DNA of 34,501 nucleotides from a virus. A model generated the notes under the pieces. The model was not told the DNA's origin. It searched no databases and was given only the letters and a program-made list of their open reading frames with translations. The DNA is taken from the IMG/VR virus record IMGVR_UViG_3300043774_001222, positions 1 through 34,501 of that record; one strand, written 5' to 3'. Positions 2,813 through 31,100 of the stretch are shown here, piece after piece. Numbering within the stretch: position 1 is the first letter of the stretch; each line of letters begins with the position of its first letter. Made by a program: the position numbers and the translations under genes.

Positions 2813-3783
2813 GCTGTGATTTTTCTATTGAAGATGCCGAAGGGCATGGGGATGGCGGCGGAGGGTTTGTGGGTGGTTGTGGTTGGTTTTTGGGTGGTTG
2901 TGGATACGGGGTGGTCGGTGCGGTGGTGTGGGGGGATGAGGCGGATGAAGCTGGCGAGGCCTCGCCATTGGGCGCGGAGGATGTCGCCGATGCGGTGCAT
3001 GGTGAAGGGATCGTCGCGGTGGTAGGATTCGGCTTGCTTGGTGAGTATTTTGCGCAGGTTGCGGCGGCGCAGCCCGGTCTTGATCTGGTGGGAGGCGGCG
3101 CGGAGTTTGCGGCGGGCTTGGCGGGTGGGCACGATGCCGCTGGGGGTCGCGGCGATGCCGGTCACGATGCGGTGTCCGGCGCGGGCGTGCTGGCGTGTCG
3201 TTTTGGCGGCGTTGATCTTAAAGCCATGCGCGGCGGCGAGTTCAGGGATTTCTTTGAGAATCCTCGCGGCGACGGCCTCGCTATTGCAGGAGAAGGTGAG
3301 GTCGTCGGCGTAGCGGGTATAGACAAAGGCGGGGCCGCGACTGCCGAGGATACGGCGCTTGGGGGTGAGCGACTCGCGCAGTGCGATCACGGCGGCATCG
3401 AATGGCGCAGCGGCGATATTGGCGATGGCGGGGCTGGTCGGCAGACCTTGGCGGGCGGCTCCGTCGGGGAAAAGGAGTGGTAAAAAATCCTTCCCGATAG
3501 CGCATCTTAATATCTCGCGCAGTTCATCGGTGGGTTTTACTGAATCGAAGAAGTCTTCAAAGTCGAAGTGCAGGGTGATCTGCCAGTCGCCGACATGGGC
3601 AAGGGCGTTGGTCACAATGGATCGTCCCGGCATGAACCCGTGGGCCACCTTGTGAATGTCGAGGGTTACAGCTCGCGTGTTGATGAAGTGGAGGATGCTG
3701 CGTAGTCTGTATTTCTCATCTGGGCTGGGGCAATAGATCGTGCGGAACTTGCCATTGCCTTTGGGGATTTTGGTGATTTTCAT
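2809..3783 (-). CDS. Retron-type reverse transcriptase (324 aa)
   Basis: RNA-dependent DNA polymerase. Motifs seen in order: R-T-I-Y-C-P-S-P near residue 14 (RT1); A-H-G-F-M-P-G-R-S-I-V-T-N-A-L-A-H at 47-63, carrying the retron hallmark NAxxH; F-D-F-E-D-F-F (catalytic D74); Q-G-L-P-T-S-P at 112-118; Y-A-D-D at 158-161; and V-T-G at 207-209, the second retron hallmark. Q-G-x-x-x-S-P rather than S-Q argues against a diversity-generating retroelement RT, and no maturase or endonuclease domain follows. An in-frame TAA three codons upstream fixes ATG 3783 as the first possible start, so the usual N-terminal helices of retron RTs are short. The basic, Thr/Pro-rich tail after residue 290 looks disordered. 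It starts 17 bases after a three-unit structured RNA region, its probable template; no fused or adjacent effector is recognisable. Confidence 0.92.
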   Translation of the reverse strand: MKITKIPKGNGKFRTIYCPSPDEKYRLRSILHFINTRAVTLDIHKVAHGFMPGRSIVTNALAHVGDWQITLHFDFEDFFDSVKPTDELREILRCAIGKDFLPLLFPDGAARQGLPTSPAIANIAAAPFDAAVIALRESLTPKRRILGSRGPAFVYTRYADDLTFSCNSEAVAARILKEIPELAAAHGFKINAAKTTRQHARAGHRIVTGIAATPSGIVPTRQARRKLRAASHQIKTGLRRRNLRKILTKQAESYHRDDPFTMHRIGDILRAQWRGLASFIRLIPPHHRTDHPVSTTTQKPTTTTHKPSAAIPMPFGIFNRKITA

Positions 3784-3800: not shown

Positions 3801-3819
3801 GCGCGTGGGGAGTGGTCGC
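3801..3819 (-). repeat. a2-like conserved repeat, RT-proximal unit
   Basis: Minus strand GCGACCACTCCCCACGCGC, followed by A-A-A-A-C-A. It lies 17 bases before the RT start codon. It carries an A where the other copies carry G, restoring a Watson-Crick pair with the 5' arm. Confidence 0.7.
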
Positions 3820-3922
3820 AGATGACCGGCCCGGCGGCGGCGTGCACACCGGGTTGGGGTTGGGTAAACCAGGTGACACTGCGCCGCCGGGCGGGATGTC
3901 ATGCTGGCTGTCGGAGAGTTTA

Positions 3923-3941
3923 GCGCGCGGGGAGTGGTCGC
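3923..3941 (-). repeat. a2-like conserved repeat, middle unit
   Basis: Minus strand GCGACCACTCCCCGCGCGC, followed by T-A-A-A-C-T-C. About 128 bases from the distal copy, with unrelated sequence between apart from the shared loop motif. Confidence 0.7.
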
Positions 3942-4050
3942 GAGAACCACGGCAGGCCGCCAGAAAGCTGGGCACGAGGGGGTTGGGAAGGCTCGTGCCG
4001 CCTTAATGGTGTCCAGAGTAGTTCAGAGGACTGTGCGCGGTGAGTTTTTG

Positions 4051-4068
4051 GCGCGCGGGAGTGGTCGC
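4051..4068 (-). repeat. a2-like conserved repeat, distal unit
   Basis: Minus strand GCGACCACTCCCGCGCGC, followed by C-A-A-A-A-A-C-T-C. First of three tandem copies; complementary to the single 5' arm at 4239-4219. Confidence 0.7.
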
Positions 4069-4218
4069 AAAATTCCCTGGGGTAGGAGGTGTGGAATTCG
4101 AGTGGGGTTGGGTGACTCGAATTCATCACAGACGGACCCAGGGAATACCTGCGGAATACTCGGTGCGCGTTGTCGCTGGCCGGGCGAATCGCCTCGGGGC
4201 TGGCTCATCCGATAAAAA

Positions 4219-4239
4219 GCCGACTACTCCCGCACGCGC
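4219..4239 (-). ncRNA. a1-like 5' arm of the RT-associated RNA
   Basis: Reads GCGCGTGCGGGAGTAGTCGG on the minus strand. It pairs with all three downstream copies of GCGACCACTCCC(C)-R-CGCGC. The best match is the RT-proximal copy: GCGCGTG pairs perfectly with CACGCGC there, whereas the other two copies need a G-U pair. A bulged C and one A-C mismatch interrupt the stem. Confidence 0.65.
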
Positions 4240-4386: not shown

Positions 4387-4418
4387 TTAACCACAGAGGA
4401 CGCAGAGGACACGGAGGG
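4387..4418 (+). repeat. Dispersed repeat A
   Basis: Reads TTAACCACAGAGGACGCAGA and onward, at the upstream border of the RT locus. Confidence 0.8.
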
Positions 4419-6870: not shown

Positions 6871-6903
6871 TGACCACAGAGGACACAGGGGACACGGAGG
6901 AGG
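6871..6903 (+). repeat. Dispersed repeat A
   Basis: TGACCACAGAGGACACAGGG and onward, between the LuxR-type gene and the small acidic gene upstream of it. Confidence 0.8.
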
Positions 6904-7344: not shown

Positions 7345-7591
7345 GGATGGATTCAATGTGGTTGAGAAGGTATTCTTCGATATCGACAAGGGATTGGGTG
7401 ATCCGCTCCCGCCACTCGACGGCTACCTGCCATGGGCCATTGTTGCTGTATGGCAGGTAGTCACGGCTGTTGAACTCGATCTTTTCAAAGGCTTCGCGGG
7501 CGGCAACGATTGCGTCGTAGGCTTTGCCGTAGTCGTCGAGAAGTTGCGGCGCGGTCGTGCCGCCGAGGTGGATGGTTGGGAATGCTTTCAT
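7328..7591 (-). CDS. Hypothetical protein (87 aa)
   Basis: ATG 7591 overlaps the stop of the AAA+ ATPase gene by four bases, which fixes the start; the longer frame extending upstream is a shadow of the ATPase gene. Mostly helical (Y-D-A-I-V-A-A-R-E-A-F-E-K-I), ending N-H-I-E-S-I-H-E-Q-N-H. No family recognised; expected to be co-translated with the ATPase. Confidence 0.65.
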   Translation of the reverse strand: MKAFPTIHLGGTTAPQLLDDYGKAYDAIVAAREAFEKIEFNSRDYLPYSNNGPWQVAVEWRERITQSLVDIEEYLLNHIESIHEQNH

Positions 7592-9105
7592 GCGGCTTTG
7601 GCGATTTTGCGGGTTTTGGTTTCGGTGGCGGTGGGTTTGAGCGATGCCTCGGTGGCGCGGCCTTTGAGTCGGTCGCGGCGGGCTTGGATGGCTGCGCCCA
7701 TGGTCTTGGAGGTGGCGATGGTGCGGGAGAGTGCGGCGAGGGCGTCCTCGGTGGTGGGTGGGCGCTGGGCGTTGAAGGCGGCGACGAGCGCATCCTTCCA
7801 CACGGCTTCGATCTGGCGACCGGAGTAGCCCTCGGAGGCTTCGGCGAGGCGTTGCAGGTCGAAGTTCTCGATGTCCCAAGCGGCTTTCTGCTTGCCGCGC
7901 AGCTTGGCGATGTGGATGCGCCAGATGGCGAGGCGCTCTTCGTGGTGGGGGAGGTCTACGAGCCATGTCATAACGCGGTCGATCACGGGGTCTGGTATCT
8001 TGTCAATATCATTCGCCGTGAAGACATAGAAGATACCCTCGGAGTGGTCTTGCATATCTTGGATGATGGCTTTGATGACGCGATCGGAGGTGCCGCCGTC
8101 GGTGGTGGATCCACCCGTGCTACCGAAGAGGCCGTCCACTTCGTCGATCCAGAGCACGCAGGGGGCTACGGCTTTGGCAGTGGCATGGGCGGTGCGCCAG
8201 TTTTGCTCGCTCTGGCCGACGAGGCTGCCGAAGAGGCGGCCTGCTTCGAGGCGCAGGAGAGGGAGGTTGAAGACATTGCCCGTGGCTTTGGCGAGGAGCG
8301 ACTTGCCGGTGCCGGGGTGTCCGCAGGCGAGGAATCCGCGAGGAGGCTCGGTGCCGAAGTCGGCAGCGGCGTCGGTGTAGAGGTGTCGGTTGGCGGTGAG
8401 CCAGCCTTTGAGATTCTCCAAGCCGCCGATCCCGTCGAGAGTGGTGGGGTAGTCCACGATCTCCAAGATGCCGTTTTTGCGGATGGTGTTGGCCTTTTCG
8501 CGTTGGATGATGTCGGGCGAGATGTCGCCTGTCTCGACGATGGAGAGGGCGAAGGCGTCCTCGGCCTCTCCGGTGGTGAGGCCGGATGCGGCGGCGAGGA
8601 GTGGGGTGAGATCCTCGGGGAGCATGATGTCGGCACTCTCGGCGATGGATCGCAGCACGATGGCGAGCGATTCGCGGTCGGGCAGGCTGAACTCGATAGG
8701 GGTAATGAGCTTGGAGCAATCGACAGGAATCTTTAGCTCGGGGGCGAGGATGAGCAGGGTGATGCCGCGTGCCTTGCCTTGGATGAGGGCATCCTTGAAA
8801 CGGCGGATGAGCACGGCGTAGCCTGGGAAGTCGGGCGTGAGGAAGAGGTGGAAGTCACGCAGGAGCAGTAGGCTGTTATCTGGCATGGATTGCACGGATT
8901 CGAGGATTTCCACGGGATCGGTGATGCCTTCGACTGTGCCTGCGATGACTTCGTGGCGGCCTTTGGCGATATCCCACGCAAAGAGGAGTCGGTCTGTGGC
9001 ACCTGCGGCCTCGGCGATGGTGCGCTCGATGCGGGCTTCCTCGTGGCTCACGAGGTAGAGGCAGGGGTAGCCTGCTTTGAGGTAGTTGGTGATACGGGTT
9101 AGCAT
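7588..9105 (-). CDS. AAA+ ATPase, Ycf46-like (505 aa)
   Basis: The N-terminal half (1-220) resembles the degenerate P-loop region of Ycf46-type ATPases (L-L-L-L-R-D-F-H near 79-86). The second half is a full AAA+ module: Walker A G-H-P-G-T-G-K-S (262-269), Walker B V-L-W-I-D-E-V-D (317-324), sensor 1 F-T-A-N-D (362-366) and R377 in D-P-V-I-D-R, a possible arginine finger. The S-G-R-Q-I-E-A-V region matches the AAA lid. It presumably remodels proteins or nucleoprotein complexes. DUF2997 and DUF1257 genes lie upstream, an association also known from cyanobacterial and other bacterial genomes. It starts after an AT-rich leader repeat and ends K-I-A-K-A-A, like the protein at 12832. Confidence 0.88.
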   Translation of the reverse strand: MLTRITNYLKAGYPCLYLVSHEEARIERTIAEAAGATDRLLFAWDIAKGRHEVIAGTVEGITDPVEILESVQSMPDNSLLLLRDFHLFLTPDFPGYAVLIRRFKDALIQGKARGITLLILAPELKIPVDCSKLITPIEFSLPDRESLAIVLRSIAESADIMLPEDLTPLLAAASGLTTGEAEDAFALSIVETGDISPDIIQREKANTIRKNGILEIVDYPTTLDGIGGLENLKGWLTANRHLYTDAAADFGTEPPRGFLACGHPGTGKSLLAKATGNVFNLPLLRLEAGRLFGSLVGQSEQNWRTAHATAKAVAPCVLWIDEVDGLFGSTGGSTTDGGTSDRVIKAIIQDMQDHSEGIFYVFTANDIDKIPDPVIDRVMTWLVDLPHHEERLAIWRIHIAKLRGKQKAAWDIENFDLQRLAEASEGYSGRQIEAVWKDALVAAFNAQRPPTTEDALAALSRTIATSKTMGAAIQARRDRLKGRATEASLKPTATETKTRKIAKAA

Positions 9106-15794: not shown

Positions 15795-16700
15795 CTACTT
15801 GGCGGCGACTGTTCCGCCCGCTTCGACGAAGCGGGAGGCCATCTCGCACAGGCGAGCGCCGACGATCCCTTGATCTTCGGCGGACAGGGCTTTCATGGAC
15901 TCCTCGATCTCTTCGAGGAGGGCGATGAGTTCCTCCGATGTCGTCGGCATCTCGGGTGCTGCGGTCGGTGCGGGAGCTGGAGCCTCGGCGGCGGGAGCGG
16001 GCGTTGGTGCGGCTACCGGAGCGGCAGGCGTTGCGGGAGCGGCGGGTGTCGGTGCGGCGGGAGCCTCGACGGCGGGCGGGGTGGTCGCGTTTTGTGCGGC
16101 CACTTGCTCTTCCAGCTCCTTTTTGCGCTTCAGGGCTTCTTCCAGCTCCTTGGCTTGCTGCTCTGCCTTGATCTTGGCCTCGGCCTCGGCGGCTTCCTTG
16201 TCGGCCTTGATCTTGTCCTCGACAGCTTTCTTTTCGGCGGCGGTGAGGCCGGTGTCGTAGATCGCTTGCAGGTCGGCTTGGAAGTCGCCGCCTTGGCGGA
16301 CGATCTCCACAGCCTGCTCGGGCGTGAGCTGCTTTTTCGATTTGGTGGTGATGACTCGGGCGATGATCGCCACTTCGGCGAAGGTGAGCTGATCGAACTC
16401 GGGTTCGGTCAGGTGTCCCGCTTCGACCAGATCGAACACTCGGGCGCCATAGCTGGCGTTGCTCACGGTGCCGGGCTTGATCCCGGCGTCTCCCAGAACG
16501 CTGTTGATGAACTTGCCTTTCGGCAGGTTCTTGTCGATGATGCGATACAGCTTGCCGATGGCGGCAAACGCACGCTGGCCTGCTTCGGTTTCCGCTTTGA
16601 AGCGGATGATGCGGTCGGCTTGCTCCAAGGCAAGTCCTTCGGCGTATGTCATTGCCCAGACATTGGGCGCGCTGACGGGCGCTTTTTTTGCTTTTGGCAT
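15795..16700 (-). CDS. Hypothetical protein with coiled coil and Ala/Pro linker (301 aa)
   Basis: Start at ATG 16700 (M-P-K-A-K-K-A-P-V). The N-terminal 150 residues are globular and helical (E-Q-A-D-R-I-I-R-F-K-A-E-T). Residues 160-210 form a highly charged coiled coil (A-E-A-E-A-K-I-K-A-E-Q-Q-A-K), followed by about 50 residues of Ala/Pro linker and a final helical domain with A-L-L-E-E-I-E-E-S-M. The layout suggests an elongated scaffold or regulatory protein. It has its own terminator and a structured leader shared with the next gene upstream. No family recognised. Confidence 0.7.
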   Translation of the reverse strand: MPKAKKAPVSAPNVWAMTYAEGLALEQADRIIRFKAETEAGQRAFAAIGKLYRIIDKNLPKGKFINSVLGDAGIKPGTVSNASYGARVFDLVEAGHLTEPEFDQLTFAEVAIIARVITTKSKKQLTPEQAVEIVRQGGDFQADLQAIYDTGLTAAEKKAVEDKIKADKEAAEAEAKIKAEQQAKELEEALKRKKELEEQVAAQNATTPPAVEAPAAPTPAAPATPAAPVAAPTPAPAAEAPAPAPTAAPEMPTTSEELIALLEEIEESMKALSAEDQGIVGARLCEMASRFVEAGGTVAAK

Positions 16701-16704
16701 ATAC

Positions 16705-16799
16705 TTAAAAAGCCGTCGGGTTTGCACAATGAAAACGGACGGCGCGTTTTCATCGCGTTTTCAACAAAAAATCCTTATTGTAAGGATTTTTCGTGAACT
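16705..16799 (-). promoter_or_regulatory. Duplicated structured leader, copy 1
   Basis: Almost identical to 17007-17100. On the minus strand it holds palindromic repeat B, then ATGAAAACG-CGCCGTC-CGTTTTCAT (9-bp hairpin), then GACGGC-TTTTT a few bases before ATG 16700. GACGGC can pair either with the GCCGTC in the hairpin loop (pseudoknot) or as a terminator-like stem with its T run. Confidence 0.65.
16768..16790. repeat. Palindromic repeat B
   Basis: AAAATCCTTA-ttg-TAAGGATTTT, at the 5' end of leader copy 1. Confidence 0.85.
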
Positions 16800-16810
16800 A
16801 AACAGATCGA

Positions 16811-17002
16811 CTACTTCACACGGATGTCGTCGATTATTGGGAAGTGGCACTCGACCACTTGAGGATTCCGATGCGCCCGCTCGGGCTGGTCGGCGTGTTG
16901 CTTGGCTTCCTCGTAGGTGGAAAAGACTTTGCGGGTTAGCAAAGCGATCGCAGCTTCGCGGTCGTCATCGTTTTTGCCGATGACAAGAAATTGAGTTGGC
17001 AT
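16811..17002 (-). CDS. Hypothetical protein (63 aa)
   Basis: M-P-T-Q-F-L-V-I-G-K-N-D-D-D-R start at 17002 directly after leader copy 2. Contains a helix R-E-A-A-I-A-L-L-T-R-K-V-F and ends F-P-I-I-D-D-I-R-V-K. Small alpha/beta protein; function unknown. The shared leader suggests it is co-regulated with the gene at 15795. Confidence 0.65.
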   Translation of the reverse strand: MPTQFLVIGKNDDDREAAIALLTRKVFSTYEEAKQHADQPERAHRNPQVVECHFPIIDDIRVK

Positions 17003-17006
17003 AATT

Positions 17007-17100
17007 TTAAAAAGCCGTCGGGTTGCACGATGAAAACGGACGGCGCGTTTTCATCGCGTTTTCAACAAAAAATCCTTACAATAAGGATTTTTCGTGAACT
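17007..17100 (-). promoter_or_regulatory. Duplicated structured leader, copy 2
   Basis: Same hairpin (ATGAAAACG/CGTTTTCAT at 17054-17030), loop GCCGTC and downstream GACGGC-TTTTT, ending seven bases before ATG 17002. Differs from copy 1 at only a few positions. Confidence 0.65.
17069..17091. repeat. Palindromic repeat B
   Basis: AAAATCCTTA-caa-TAAGGATTTT, at the 5' end of leader copy 2. Confidence 0.85.
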
Positions 17101-17286
17101 CAAAATTTGCATGAAGCGGGCAGGTCGCGCACCCTTCACCCTTCCTCAAAAATCCTTATTGTAAGGATTTTCGAGGAAGGACGCCGGGGCATGAAGCGGC
17201 CAGGTCTTCAAACTCAAAATCAAAGGAACAAACGAAAAGACGGCGACGCCGACCGCTGGCCGGATGCGTCTTTTTTTCCTTTGAAT
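17101..17286. other. Gene-free stretch with short repeats
   Basis: No convincing gene. Holds two GCATGAAGCGG-s-CAGGTC direct repeats (17110-17127 and 17189-17207 region), palindromic repeat B enlarged by flanking CTTCCTC/GAGGAAG, and a GACGGCGACGCCG segment. Together with the adjacent tandem array it may be a replication or regulatory region. Confidence 0.45.
17149..17171. repeat. Palindromic repeat B with extended stem
   Basis: AAAATCCTTA-ttg-TAAGGATTTT, flanked by CTTCCTC and GAGGAAG so that the hairpin lengthens to about 17 bp. Confidence 0.85.
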
Positions 17287-17544
17287 GAAGGAAACATCTT
17301 TCTTCCTTCCTGCCTAATATCAAACGAGGAAGGAAACATCTTTCTTCCTTCCTGCCTAATATCAAACGGGGAAGGAAACATCTTTCTTCCTTCCTGCCTA
17401 ATATCAAACGAGGAAGGAAACATCTTTCTTCCTTCCTGCCTAATATCAAACGAGAAAGGAAACATCTTTCTTCCTTCCTGCCTAATATCAAACGAGAAAG
17501 GAAACATCTTCCTTCCTGCCTAATATCAAACGAGGAAGGAAACA
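17287..17544 (+). repeat. 42-base tandem repeat array (about 6 copies)
   Basis: Unit starts GAAGGAAACATCTTTCTTCC and ends TAATATCAAACGAG. Copies start at 17287, 17329, 17371, 17413, 17455 and 17497 (the last four bases shorter), with a partial seventh. Each copy contains GGAAGGAA-N9-TTCCTTCC. Because 42 is a multiple of three, both strands stay open, but no start or composition supports a protein. Confidence 0.9.
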
Positions 17545-17576
17545 AAAAAGGCCCTCAACGCAATGCGTTGAGGGCC
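17544..17576 (-). terminator. Rho-independent terminator of the 17592-18635 gene
   Basis: Minus strand GGCCCTCAACGC, 3-base loop, GCGTTGAGGGCC, then TTTTTT. Perfect 12-bp stem. Confidence 0.92.
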
Positions 17577-21170: not shown

Positions 21171-21199
21171 TAACCACGGAGAACACGGAGGACACGGAG
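21171..21199 (+). repeat. Dispersed repeat A
   Basis: TAACCACGGAGAACACGGAG and onward, just after the exonuclease stop. Confidence 0.8.
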
Positions 21200-21244
21200 T
21201 TTTTTTTGGAGGAATTGGGATTGCGGCGGCGCGCGGGTTTCGCG

Positions 21245-28124: not shown

Positions 28125-31100
28125 GTGAGAGAATTCGATTGGCTATTGAGAATGGGAAGAATGAGCGGTTGAGGCTGTTGACGCAAGGGTCGCTGGGTAT
28201 GAGGCTCAAAGAATTTCGCTATTATCAACCTCCTGGCGGTTTTTACGGAAATCCTTACGATAAGGATTTTGCTCAGGAGAGGCAGAAAGAGCGTCGCCAC
28301 GGGTTGATCAAAGCGGGCATCGTGGGCGCGGGTTTGCTGGGTGGTGGAGCTTTGCTGGGCCGTGGGTTGTATAAGGTCGGCAACAGCGGGGCCGTGCGGC
28401 GAGCCGAGGATCTGGCCGAGGAACTCTCGAAGCTGCGTGCCAGTAAGGCCGCTGCCGATGTCGGGAATGCCGCGCCTGCTCCGCGTGGCCGCCCGAAGTC
28501 CGTCGTTCAGCCTGCTCCGCAGACACCGCAGGCTCAGACGCCCCAGACGCCTCCCCCACAGCCTCCGCCACAGACGCCTCCGCCGACAGCCCCCAAGGTT
28601 ACTGGGAAGTCAGCGCAGCAAGTCAAGGCGGTCGAGAATCTGAATAAGCAGGGGGCATTATCGAATGCCGATGCCACCGCCGAGATGGATGAGATCGCAG
28701 CGGCAGCAGAAGCAGCCAAGCCGCCGCGCAAGCTCACGGCGAGGCAGCAAAAATTAGCGAACCGGCAGGCTAAAGTCGCCAAATTCGCCGCCGCTCAATC
28801 TGGAGGGACGGCCTCCGTGCCGTCTGCTCCCGCAGCGCCAGTCGCTCCGAAAACAAAGGCTCCCGTAGCTGCAAAGACTCCTGCCGCGCCCAAGCCTCCA
28901 GTCAAGACCCAAGCTCCTACAAAACCCGTCGCCAGCGCGACCAATCAGGAGTTTTGGGAGAAGAAAGGCGTCGGCAAAGTGCCGCTCACGGGAACGCCCG
29001 AGCAGAACGCTGCCCTGCGCAAAAGGTTGGAAGAGACTCATGCCGCTGGGGGGTTCAATGGCAAGGTCGCTGCCGATGTGATCGATGAGGCCCGCGCTTC
29101 GCTGAAACCGAAATCCGATTTTCCAGAAGGACTCAGCGATAAACTTCGCGCGGCAGGGAAGGAAAACAATCCGAAGCCTAAAGGTAAGAAAAATTCCAAG
29201 GCCAAAAAAGAGGATGCCGATGAGGCTGACGATCTCGACGATCTGGAGGCTGACGACATCAATGAACCGGATGCCTCGGCGGAAGAAGCCGATTGGGAGG
29301 CAAAGCTGAAGGAGAATCCCCAAGTGCGCGCCAAGAAGTCTGCCGCAAAGTCAGGCTCCAACAAGCCTGCTGCCAAGCCTGCCGCAAAATCCAAGAAAGG
29401 TAAAAAAGAGGAAGCTCCGCTTTCTCTTGCCGACAAAATCGCTGCCAAGGTCAAGGCGAAGCGCGACAAAAAGAATGGCAAGAATCTCTCGGCCCTCTTG
29501 CAGCGTGTGCGGTATTTCAATCAATTTCAAACCGACGAGGCGGGCATCCCGCTCACGGGTCGCGTGGCGAGGGATCGCTTCGTGAAGAAGCTCCGCGATG
29601 AGGACTTGGATCGCCGCGATGCGAATATCCTGCGTGCCGGTGGCGCGGGTGCGCTGGCGGGCCTACTGGCTCGTGGCCGCATCGGCGCGAGCAAGCGCGC
29701 ACTCATCGGCGCGGGTGCTGGCGGACTCGGCGTGATCGGTATCCGTGCCCTCACGAATAACGACCGCGACATCTACGGTGAGCGGGATCGCGGCAGCAAG
29801 CGCGCGGAGTTGCTCCCTGCCGTGGGTGGCCTCGGCGCGGCGGCTTGGCTTGCGGGTAAGCGGTTGAAGGCGTTTGCGGCGAAGTTTAACCACAAGAAAT
29901 TTAACCACAGAGGACACAGAGGACACAGAGGGCACAGAGGGCACAGAGGAGGGGTGAAGGAGTTTGCCGCGTATGTCGAAGATATGGCGATCGAGGGCCT
30001 TCCTAAAAATGTGCAGGCCGACATCGCTCGCTTTATCAATGCGAAGCCGGGCGATAAGGTGATCCACTACGGCATGGTTGTCTCGGAGTTGGCGATGATG
30101 GCGGACCTTCCGAATCTCAAGCTGGCCCGCGCAAATGTTTCCAAGCTCGAAAAAGCGAAGGCGGCAAAAATGGTTTTCGATCAGTTGAAGAAAGGCGAGA
30201 AATTCGTTCTGATCCTGAATGGCAAAGTGGTGGATGGCCATCACTTCATCGCCAAGGCGGAGCGTGGCGGCGTTACGAGTAGTCTCGATGTGATCGATCT
30301 CACTCCACTTCGCTTCCAGCATCTCTCCGCCCGTCTTCGCGGCGTGAAGAACTTTGACGACTACCGGCTCTATTATTTCAAGGGTCGCAATACGGGCATT
30401 GCCGCGCGGAGTGCGGAGGAGGCTCGTAAAAAGAAGAAGCGTGGCGGCGATGAGTTGGTGGCTGTGCGCACGCCGAGCGATTCCGAGAAAAGCCAGATGG
30501 CGCGTGGCATTTGGGTGCGGACTCGGCGCGATGGCAAGTCGCCTGGGCAGTCTCGCTATGGCAAGGGGCGTGGGCAGGGGCCAGCGCGGAAGAGCTTGAG
30601 TGCGAAGCTGCGCGGATTGAAAGAGTTTGGGGTGTTGAAGTCAAAGATCGTGCCGGTAATAGAAAGGGGTATTGATTTGATTACTGATTATGATCCTTTT
30701 GGGCACTTTGCACGGCGGAGAGCGAAGTATACCACTCAGCAGGCTAAGCATGTGCGTGCACAGGAAAGCGCGCACGCGGCAAGAATGTCCCAAATTCTTG
30801 GCAGCAAGTGGTCACCCAATTACGGTGAATCATATGGCGCGAAATTCTACACTAAAGAAGCAAAGGGATACCGCAAGCAGGCGGCTGATCGTTTCAAGCG
30901 GGACGCTGTAGTATCTGGGGCAGGATTAGTCGCTGCTGGTGCTGGAGCTGGATACTTGGCTACGCGCAAGAAACAACTTGCGGCGAAACTGCGCGTCAGA
31001 TTTTTCGAGAAAAAGCGTTTCGGGCCTCCAGCGGGTTTTTACGACAAAAACTCGCCCGAGTATTGGAATTCCCCAGAGCGGAAGGCCGAAAGGGAGGTGC

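Follow-up and report, generated by a model that had tools for sequence, protein, structure and literature searches.

A candidate phage retron in which one msr may serve an array of exchangeable msd templates

Introduction

Known retrons typically have one template. The locus described here lies in a virus record of IMG/VR (IMGVR_UViG_3300043774_001222; the window, by which we mean the whole stretch of 34,501 bases that was analysed), which encodes a lambda-family portal protein and, on its minus strand, a retron-type reverse transcriptase (RT). From its sequence we judge it probable that this locus is a retron carried by a phage, with a non-coding RNA (ncRNA) in which one a1 and one msr are followed by an array of three msd templates (four in one relative), each with its own a2, and that alternative a1:a2 pairing leads to several multicopy single-stranded DNAs (msDNAs).

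In the standard retron layout an upstream ncRNA on the same strand comprises a1, the msr hairpins, the msd hairpin and a2, and retron RTs start synthesis at a branch G adjoining a1, with the msd adjacent to a2 as their template (PMC6868368). The bacterial retrons (Ec86/Eco1, Ec67/Eco2, Ec78, St85 and others) are like the window locus in the NAxxH, YADD and VTG motifs of their RTs and in ncRNA layout (PMC6868368), but the window array has several msd and a2 units per a1-msr, is phage-borne, comes with no recognised effector and carries the same tip, CCCAACCCC, on all of its msds. Multiplied template sequences are a likeness to Retron-Nex1 (Ne160), for which several duplicated msr and msd repeats and no RT within a kilobase are described (PMC6868368). 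Nex1, however, repeats both the msr and the msd with no RT near, whereas here a single msr is followed by several msds and the RT is either adjoining or about 1.4 kb away. The open-access literature on tandem or multiple msds yielded nothing besides Nex1. Exchange of the msd has a laboratory precedent, since the Eco2 msr and RT copy the Eco3 msd (PMC6868368); there too the msr-RT pairing is fixed and the msd exchangeable, although in the phages the exchange is apparently natural and proceeds unit by unit. What is new here is one msr with several exchangeable msds in a phage; the retron itself is of a known kind.

Results

A retron-type RT preceded by one a1-msr and three msd-a2 units

The window RT falls in the retron clade and carries YADD, NAxxH (region X) and VTG (region Y). 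Both retron signatures, NAxxH and VTG, are invariant across the RTs of the window and of its three close relatives (n = 4). When a profile of the RT's clade was compared with solved structures (PDB), the best matches were the retron RTs Ec86, Ec67, Ec83 and Ec78 (1e-39 to 1e-33), and a group II intron RT scored by the same profile came out well below them at 1e-20. The NCBIfam model retron_St85 matches the window RT at 1e-38 with 133 bits, under its curated cut-off of 235 bits, and PADLOC retron RT models likewise match at 1e-38. The top PADLOC model is RT_XIII, for which the best stretch covers only amino acids 112-241; models III-A and II-A have nearly equal scores, and no type effector accompanies any of them.

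Read on the minus strand, the computed order is a1, two short msr hairpins (4221-4180), msd1-a2, linker, msd2-a2, linker, msd3-a2 and the RT start at 3783 (Table 1). A single a1-msr (4239-4180) is followed by three msd-a2 units, so placed that the a1/a2 inverted repeats enclose msr and msd upstream of the RT and on its strand, and this layout is kept in four phages. The original prediction, made on the plus strand, had described three dissimilar stems that share one loop. We found all three hairpins where it had placed them, each with an exact GGGGTTGGG tip, and no further exact copy of GGGGTTGGG in the window that might be a binding site outside the array. The prediction was also right about the inner stems (CACCgGGTT/AACCaGGTG, which has one mismatch; GGCACGAG/CTCGTGCC; GAATTCGAGT/ACTCGAATTC) and about the two outer stems, those of its units 1 and 3; its unit 2 additionally has a weaker outer stem. 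Its strand and boundaries required correction: the meaningful strand is that of the RT, on which the loop reads CCCAACCCC, and its limits left the a1/msr outside, together with the a2 at 3801-3819, which is the last one. Our unit numbers follow the RNA and run opposite to the earlier ones.

Few perfect 8-bp stems with a loop of 9-14 bases occur in the window; the 18 listings, several of which overlap one another, include two of the three units. The array region as a whole folds with z = -8.6 against shuffles and the flanking units, taken as single hairpins, reach RNA z values of about -5 to -6, while the strength of unit 2 is confined to its perfect 8-bp upper stem and is weak outside it.

Table 1. 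Positions of the predicted retron components and of a dispersed repeat in the window
Feature	Position	Strand	Remarks
RT, retron-type, 324 amino acids	2809..3783	minus	NAxxH at amino acids 59-63, YADD at 158-161, VTG at 207-209
a1, GCGCGTGCGGGAGTAGTCG	4221..4239	minus	one copy only, the same in all four phages; UAGU within it is the proposed branch-G context
msr hairpin 1 (GGCT...AGCC)	4202..4221	minus	seen in sequence
msr hairpin 2 (CCGAGGCGATTCGCCCGG)	4180..4197	minus	similar (U)UCGcC hairpin upstream of related RTs
msd unit 1 (family F1; unit 3 of the original prediction)	4072..4146	minus	lower stem ATTCCCTGGG, upper stem GAATTCGAGT, tip CCCAACCCC
tip CCCAACCCC of unit 1	4104..4112	minus	conserved; GGGGTTGGG on the plus strand
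a2 of unit 1 (GCGACCACTCCCGCGCGC)	4051..4068	minus	a1 pairing -33.0 kcal/mol
msd unit 2 (family F3)	3945..4023	minus	upper stem GGCACGAG/CTCGTGCC, weaker lower stem
tip CCCAACCCC of unit 2	3979..3987	minus	conserved; GGGGTTGGG on the plus strand
a2 of unit 2	3923..3941	minus	a1 pairing -32.8 kcal/mol
msd unit 3 (family F6; unit 1 of the original prediction)	3822..3902	minus	long G+C-rich lower stem, upper stem CACCtGGTT/AACCcGGTG
tip CCCAACCCC of unit 3	3856..3864	minus	conserved; GGGGTTGGG on the plus strand
a2 of unit 3	3801..3819	minus	a1 pairing -33.3 kcal/mol; 17 bases upstream of RT start codon
ACCACAGAGGACACRGAGG repeat copies	599-626, 1432-1459, 4390-4417, 6873-6900, 21173-21200, 29904-29949, others

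Stems turn over while pairing, tip and a2 are kept

In IMG/VR three phages (L001, L002 and L003) have RTs 85-87% identical to that of the window, and each carries the same array, with 3, 4 and 3 units respectively. Together with the window this gives 13 units, which we sorted by inspection into 8 msd families. Every one of the 13 a2 copies pairs with a1 at a computed -30 to -36 kcal/mol; the mean for shuffled a2 sequences is near -16, with no more than 1 in 500 of them as good. The pairing includes G-U pairs that can be seen in the sequence, and in some a2 copies a U replaces the C opposite an A of a1, turning a mismatch into an A-U pair. The tip is identical in 13/13 units.

That the stems change with pairing kept is evident from their arms. 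When 5' arms were folded with 3' arms across the 8 families, the cognate set was the single best of 40,320 permutations (-284.5 versus a mean of -186.4, standard deviation 15.8), and most upper-stem positions show 3-4 different Watson-Crick pairs between families. The earlier proposal of a selected structure with varying stem sequence is strongly borne out by these results. G-U pairs account for just 9 of the 255 pairs in the stems, a scarcity which suggests that the stems have to stay paired as DNA too, as a reverse-transcribed msd would need. The a1:a2 duplex of a retron, by comparison, remains RNA.

The original prediction had also regarded the stem as a free payload and had proposed a comparison of stem sequences with host or rival phage genomes. 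Payload found no support, for the size and the two-tier architecture of the units are kept and the stems have no convincing match: none at all in 50,697 phage records, only short weak ones in 72,556 plasmids, and in 388 Verrucomicrobiota-phylum genomes short, G+C-rich matches of the kind expected by chance, with no RT beside the four that were inspected. One Verrucomicrobiota-phylum genome encodes a portal protein 40% identical to that of the window, which is a lead to the host.

Units are exchanged within a constant frame

Between the four phages the a1-msr is 96-100% identical and linker 1 is 100% identical, and units are shared in a patchwork. Unit 1 is common to the window and L001 (87%), unit 2 to the window and L003 (98%) and, in another form, to L001 and L002 (95%), and unit 3 to L001 and L003 (98%). 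Units in the same slot that are not shared have 63-79% identity, a figure that includes the common tip and ends. The array is a mosaic of cassettes within a constant frame. In the RT, amino acids 22-44 and 83-104 are wholly different between the window and L001-L003 and the remainder is nearly identical, which suggests recombination within the gene.

The window is without two genes that stand between array and RT in L001-L003 (117 and 353 amino acids in L001). The 353-amino-acid protein (L001 1940-2998, with a homologous stretch in L002 and L003) resembles queuine tRNA-ribosyltransferase-like (Tgt/DpdA-like) phage proteins (PHROG 887, 1e-10); its absence from the window rules it out as an essential component.

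Further searches returned no more arrays of this kind. A search of IMG/VR with the unit pattern gave 39 contigs which, besides the three relatives, hold one recurring and apparently protein-coding sequence or chance matches. No close relative with the patterns of the window's clade was present in 84,980 genomes, and a wider genome search found retron RTs of at most 41% identity; the four closest of these were inspected and have no array with the CCCAACCCC tip.

Multiplied templates elsewhere in the RT clade

RTs at 34-47% identity to that of the window occur in other phages (L046-L057), many of which have a structured stretch upstream, and in several of them a hairpin like msr hairpin 2 of the window lies upstream of the RT. 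L046 (2014-2760) has a 70-nt segment in two copies, 99% identical, with a different long hairpin after each. L048 (2003-3000) has CTAGGTAG-like motifs in a regular set of four (three exact, the fourth read by eye), each preceding a UUCG hairpin by about 55-62 bases, again with a different long hairpin after each, and probably represents four complete tandem templates. These two and apparently four templates, in RTs of about 40% identity to that of the window, resemble the window array in being multiplied and in their unrelated hairpins; unlike it, they apparently have their own msr each and their tips are unconserved, the CCCAACCCC tip being absent from both. As read from these loci, template multiplication occurs more than once in the RT clade, and a single msr for several msds is seen only in the window's lineage.

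The RT C-termini of L048, L049, L050 and L056 carry an extra region of more than 100 amino acids without a Pfam match, a possible fused effector.

Discussion

How the array may work

Taken together, the architecture, the pairing of a1 with every a2 and the kind of RT point to the following scheme. The RNA would run along the minus strand from about 4240 to 3801, followed by the RT, and its a1 would pair with any single a2 copy. The RT would prime at the msr branch G and copy the msd beside the paired a2, so that one enzyme could produce several different hairpin msDNAs, whose number and ends we infer, with the same GGGGTTGGG tip on different stems. The constant tip would probably have a protein or another tip as its binding partner, the varied stems would make the msDNA set diverse, and single units would be swapped between phages through recombination in the constant linkers. 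Such a set might provide several sensors or decoys in conflicts of the phage with its host or with other phages.

The loop had been proposed to be read by the RT or a partner. This is plausible in so far as the tip is identical throughout the array, but hairpin tips differ in the RT relatives at 34-47% identity and the tip is for that reason not a general requirement of the RT clade. Because it is fixed in the window's lineage yet absent from relatives, the tip is more likely a ligand of a partner or of another tip than something that RTs require in general. More tentatively, and with somewhat less than even confidence, one could picture a single msr giving a swappable set of 3-4 msDNAs with the same G-rich tip, a modular sensor or decoy array rearranged between phages, the tips perhaps pairing as two-strand G-quadruplexes.

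Alternative explanations

The same retron could instead synthesise DNA only from the last a2, or from each a2 while running on to the msr, and so make one long msDNA or a nested ladder of multi-hairpin msDNAs. There is only one msr, the last a2 lies nearest the RT gene, no linker feature is proven to stop the RT, and when the whole RNA is folded to minimum energy, a1 pairs with stretches of the later a2 copies, among them the last. Nevertheless, the internal a2 copies pair with a1 as strongly as the last one does although the adjoining msds have fully diverged, which would be needless if only the last a2 primes. It is because pairing-competent internal a2 copies persist beside diverged msds that we favour separate msDNAs and regard a long or nested product as unlikely.

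Nor do we expect that one unit is active and the others are leftover tandem duplicates. The array was presumably made by tandem duplication and in the window the full unit 2 folds weakly, but 13/13 units keep the tip, the hairpin and a pairing-competent a2 while the stem sequence turns over, and decay would hit these features first; this makes the idea very improbable. Least probable of all is a reading in which the hairpins belong to a regulatory leader or are sites on the DNA (protein-binding palindromes, recombination sites, an attenuator) and only happen to adjoin an RT gene. In its favour, two genes intervene between array and RT in three relatives, the stems are so nearly pure Watson-Crick that both strands fold, and the units recombine like cassettes. 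Against it, the a1/msr/msd/a2 order with a retron-like msr stands upstream of a retron RT, a1:a2 pairing is present in all units, related RTs have retron-like RNAs at the same place, and a scan for terminator-like sites gave none in the array.

Several results weigh against a retron that makes separate msDNAs from one msr. In retrons the branch G stands next to a1 in a UAG(C/U) context, with msr hairpins after it; here UAGU is inside a1 and two short hairpins come next, but the msr by itself folds no better than shuffles. The middle unit is weak when folded whole (RNA z -1.65, with 21/300 shuffles equally good; DNA z -0.34), and unit 1 of L003, a near-family, folds marginally better with a foreign arm. 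The two genes of L001-L003 put about 1.4 kb between array and RT. Arm co-change rests on few lineages since the array is known from four phages only. Rfam gave no retron family match to the array, and none of the neighbouring open reading frames tested has a PADLOC, Pfam, PHROG or NCBIfam effector match. A retron is defined at the molecular level without reference to an effector.

If a single msr does serve several msds, the msd would be a module that turns over fast with its structure kept. The array would then offer a direct way to ask what the stems and tips of msDNAs do, and a ready blueprint with which a single retron could be made to yield several DNAs. As it lies in phages with no recognised effector, it also prompts one to ask what purpose retron DNA serves in phages.

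Other features of the window

A promoter scan found nothing. On the minus strand at 7588-9105 the window encodes an AAA+ ATPase similar to the PADLOC defence ATPase IetA (1e-22), with a strong match to phrog_8638 (function unknown). A 42-nt unit is present in six tandem copies at 17245-17563, and ahead of it, at 16694-17171, lie two 84-nt direct repeats with the palindromes ATGAAAAC..GTTTTCAT and AAAAATCC..GGATTTTT; together they form a candidate replication origin or regulatory region. Finally, the dispersed repeat ACCACAGAGGACACRGAGG has 19 matches with at most 3 mismatches, against 0 expected. Its copies are mostly intergenic and some lie immediately ahead of start codons, so that a ribosome-binding site may be part of the repeat.
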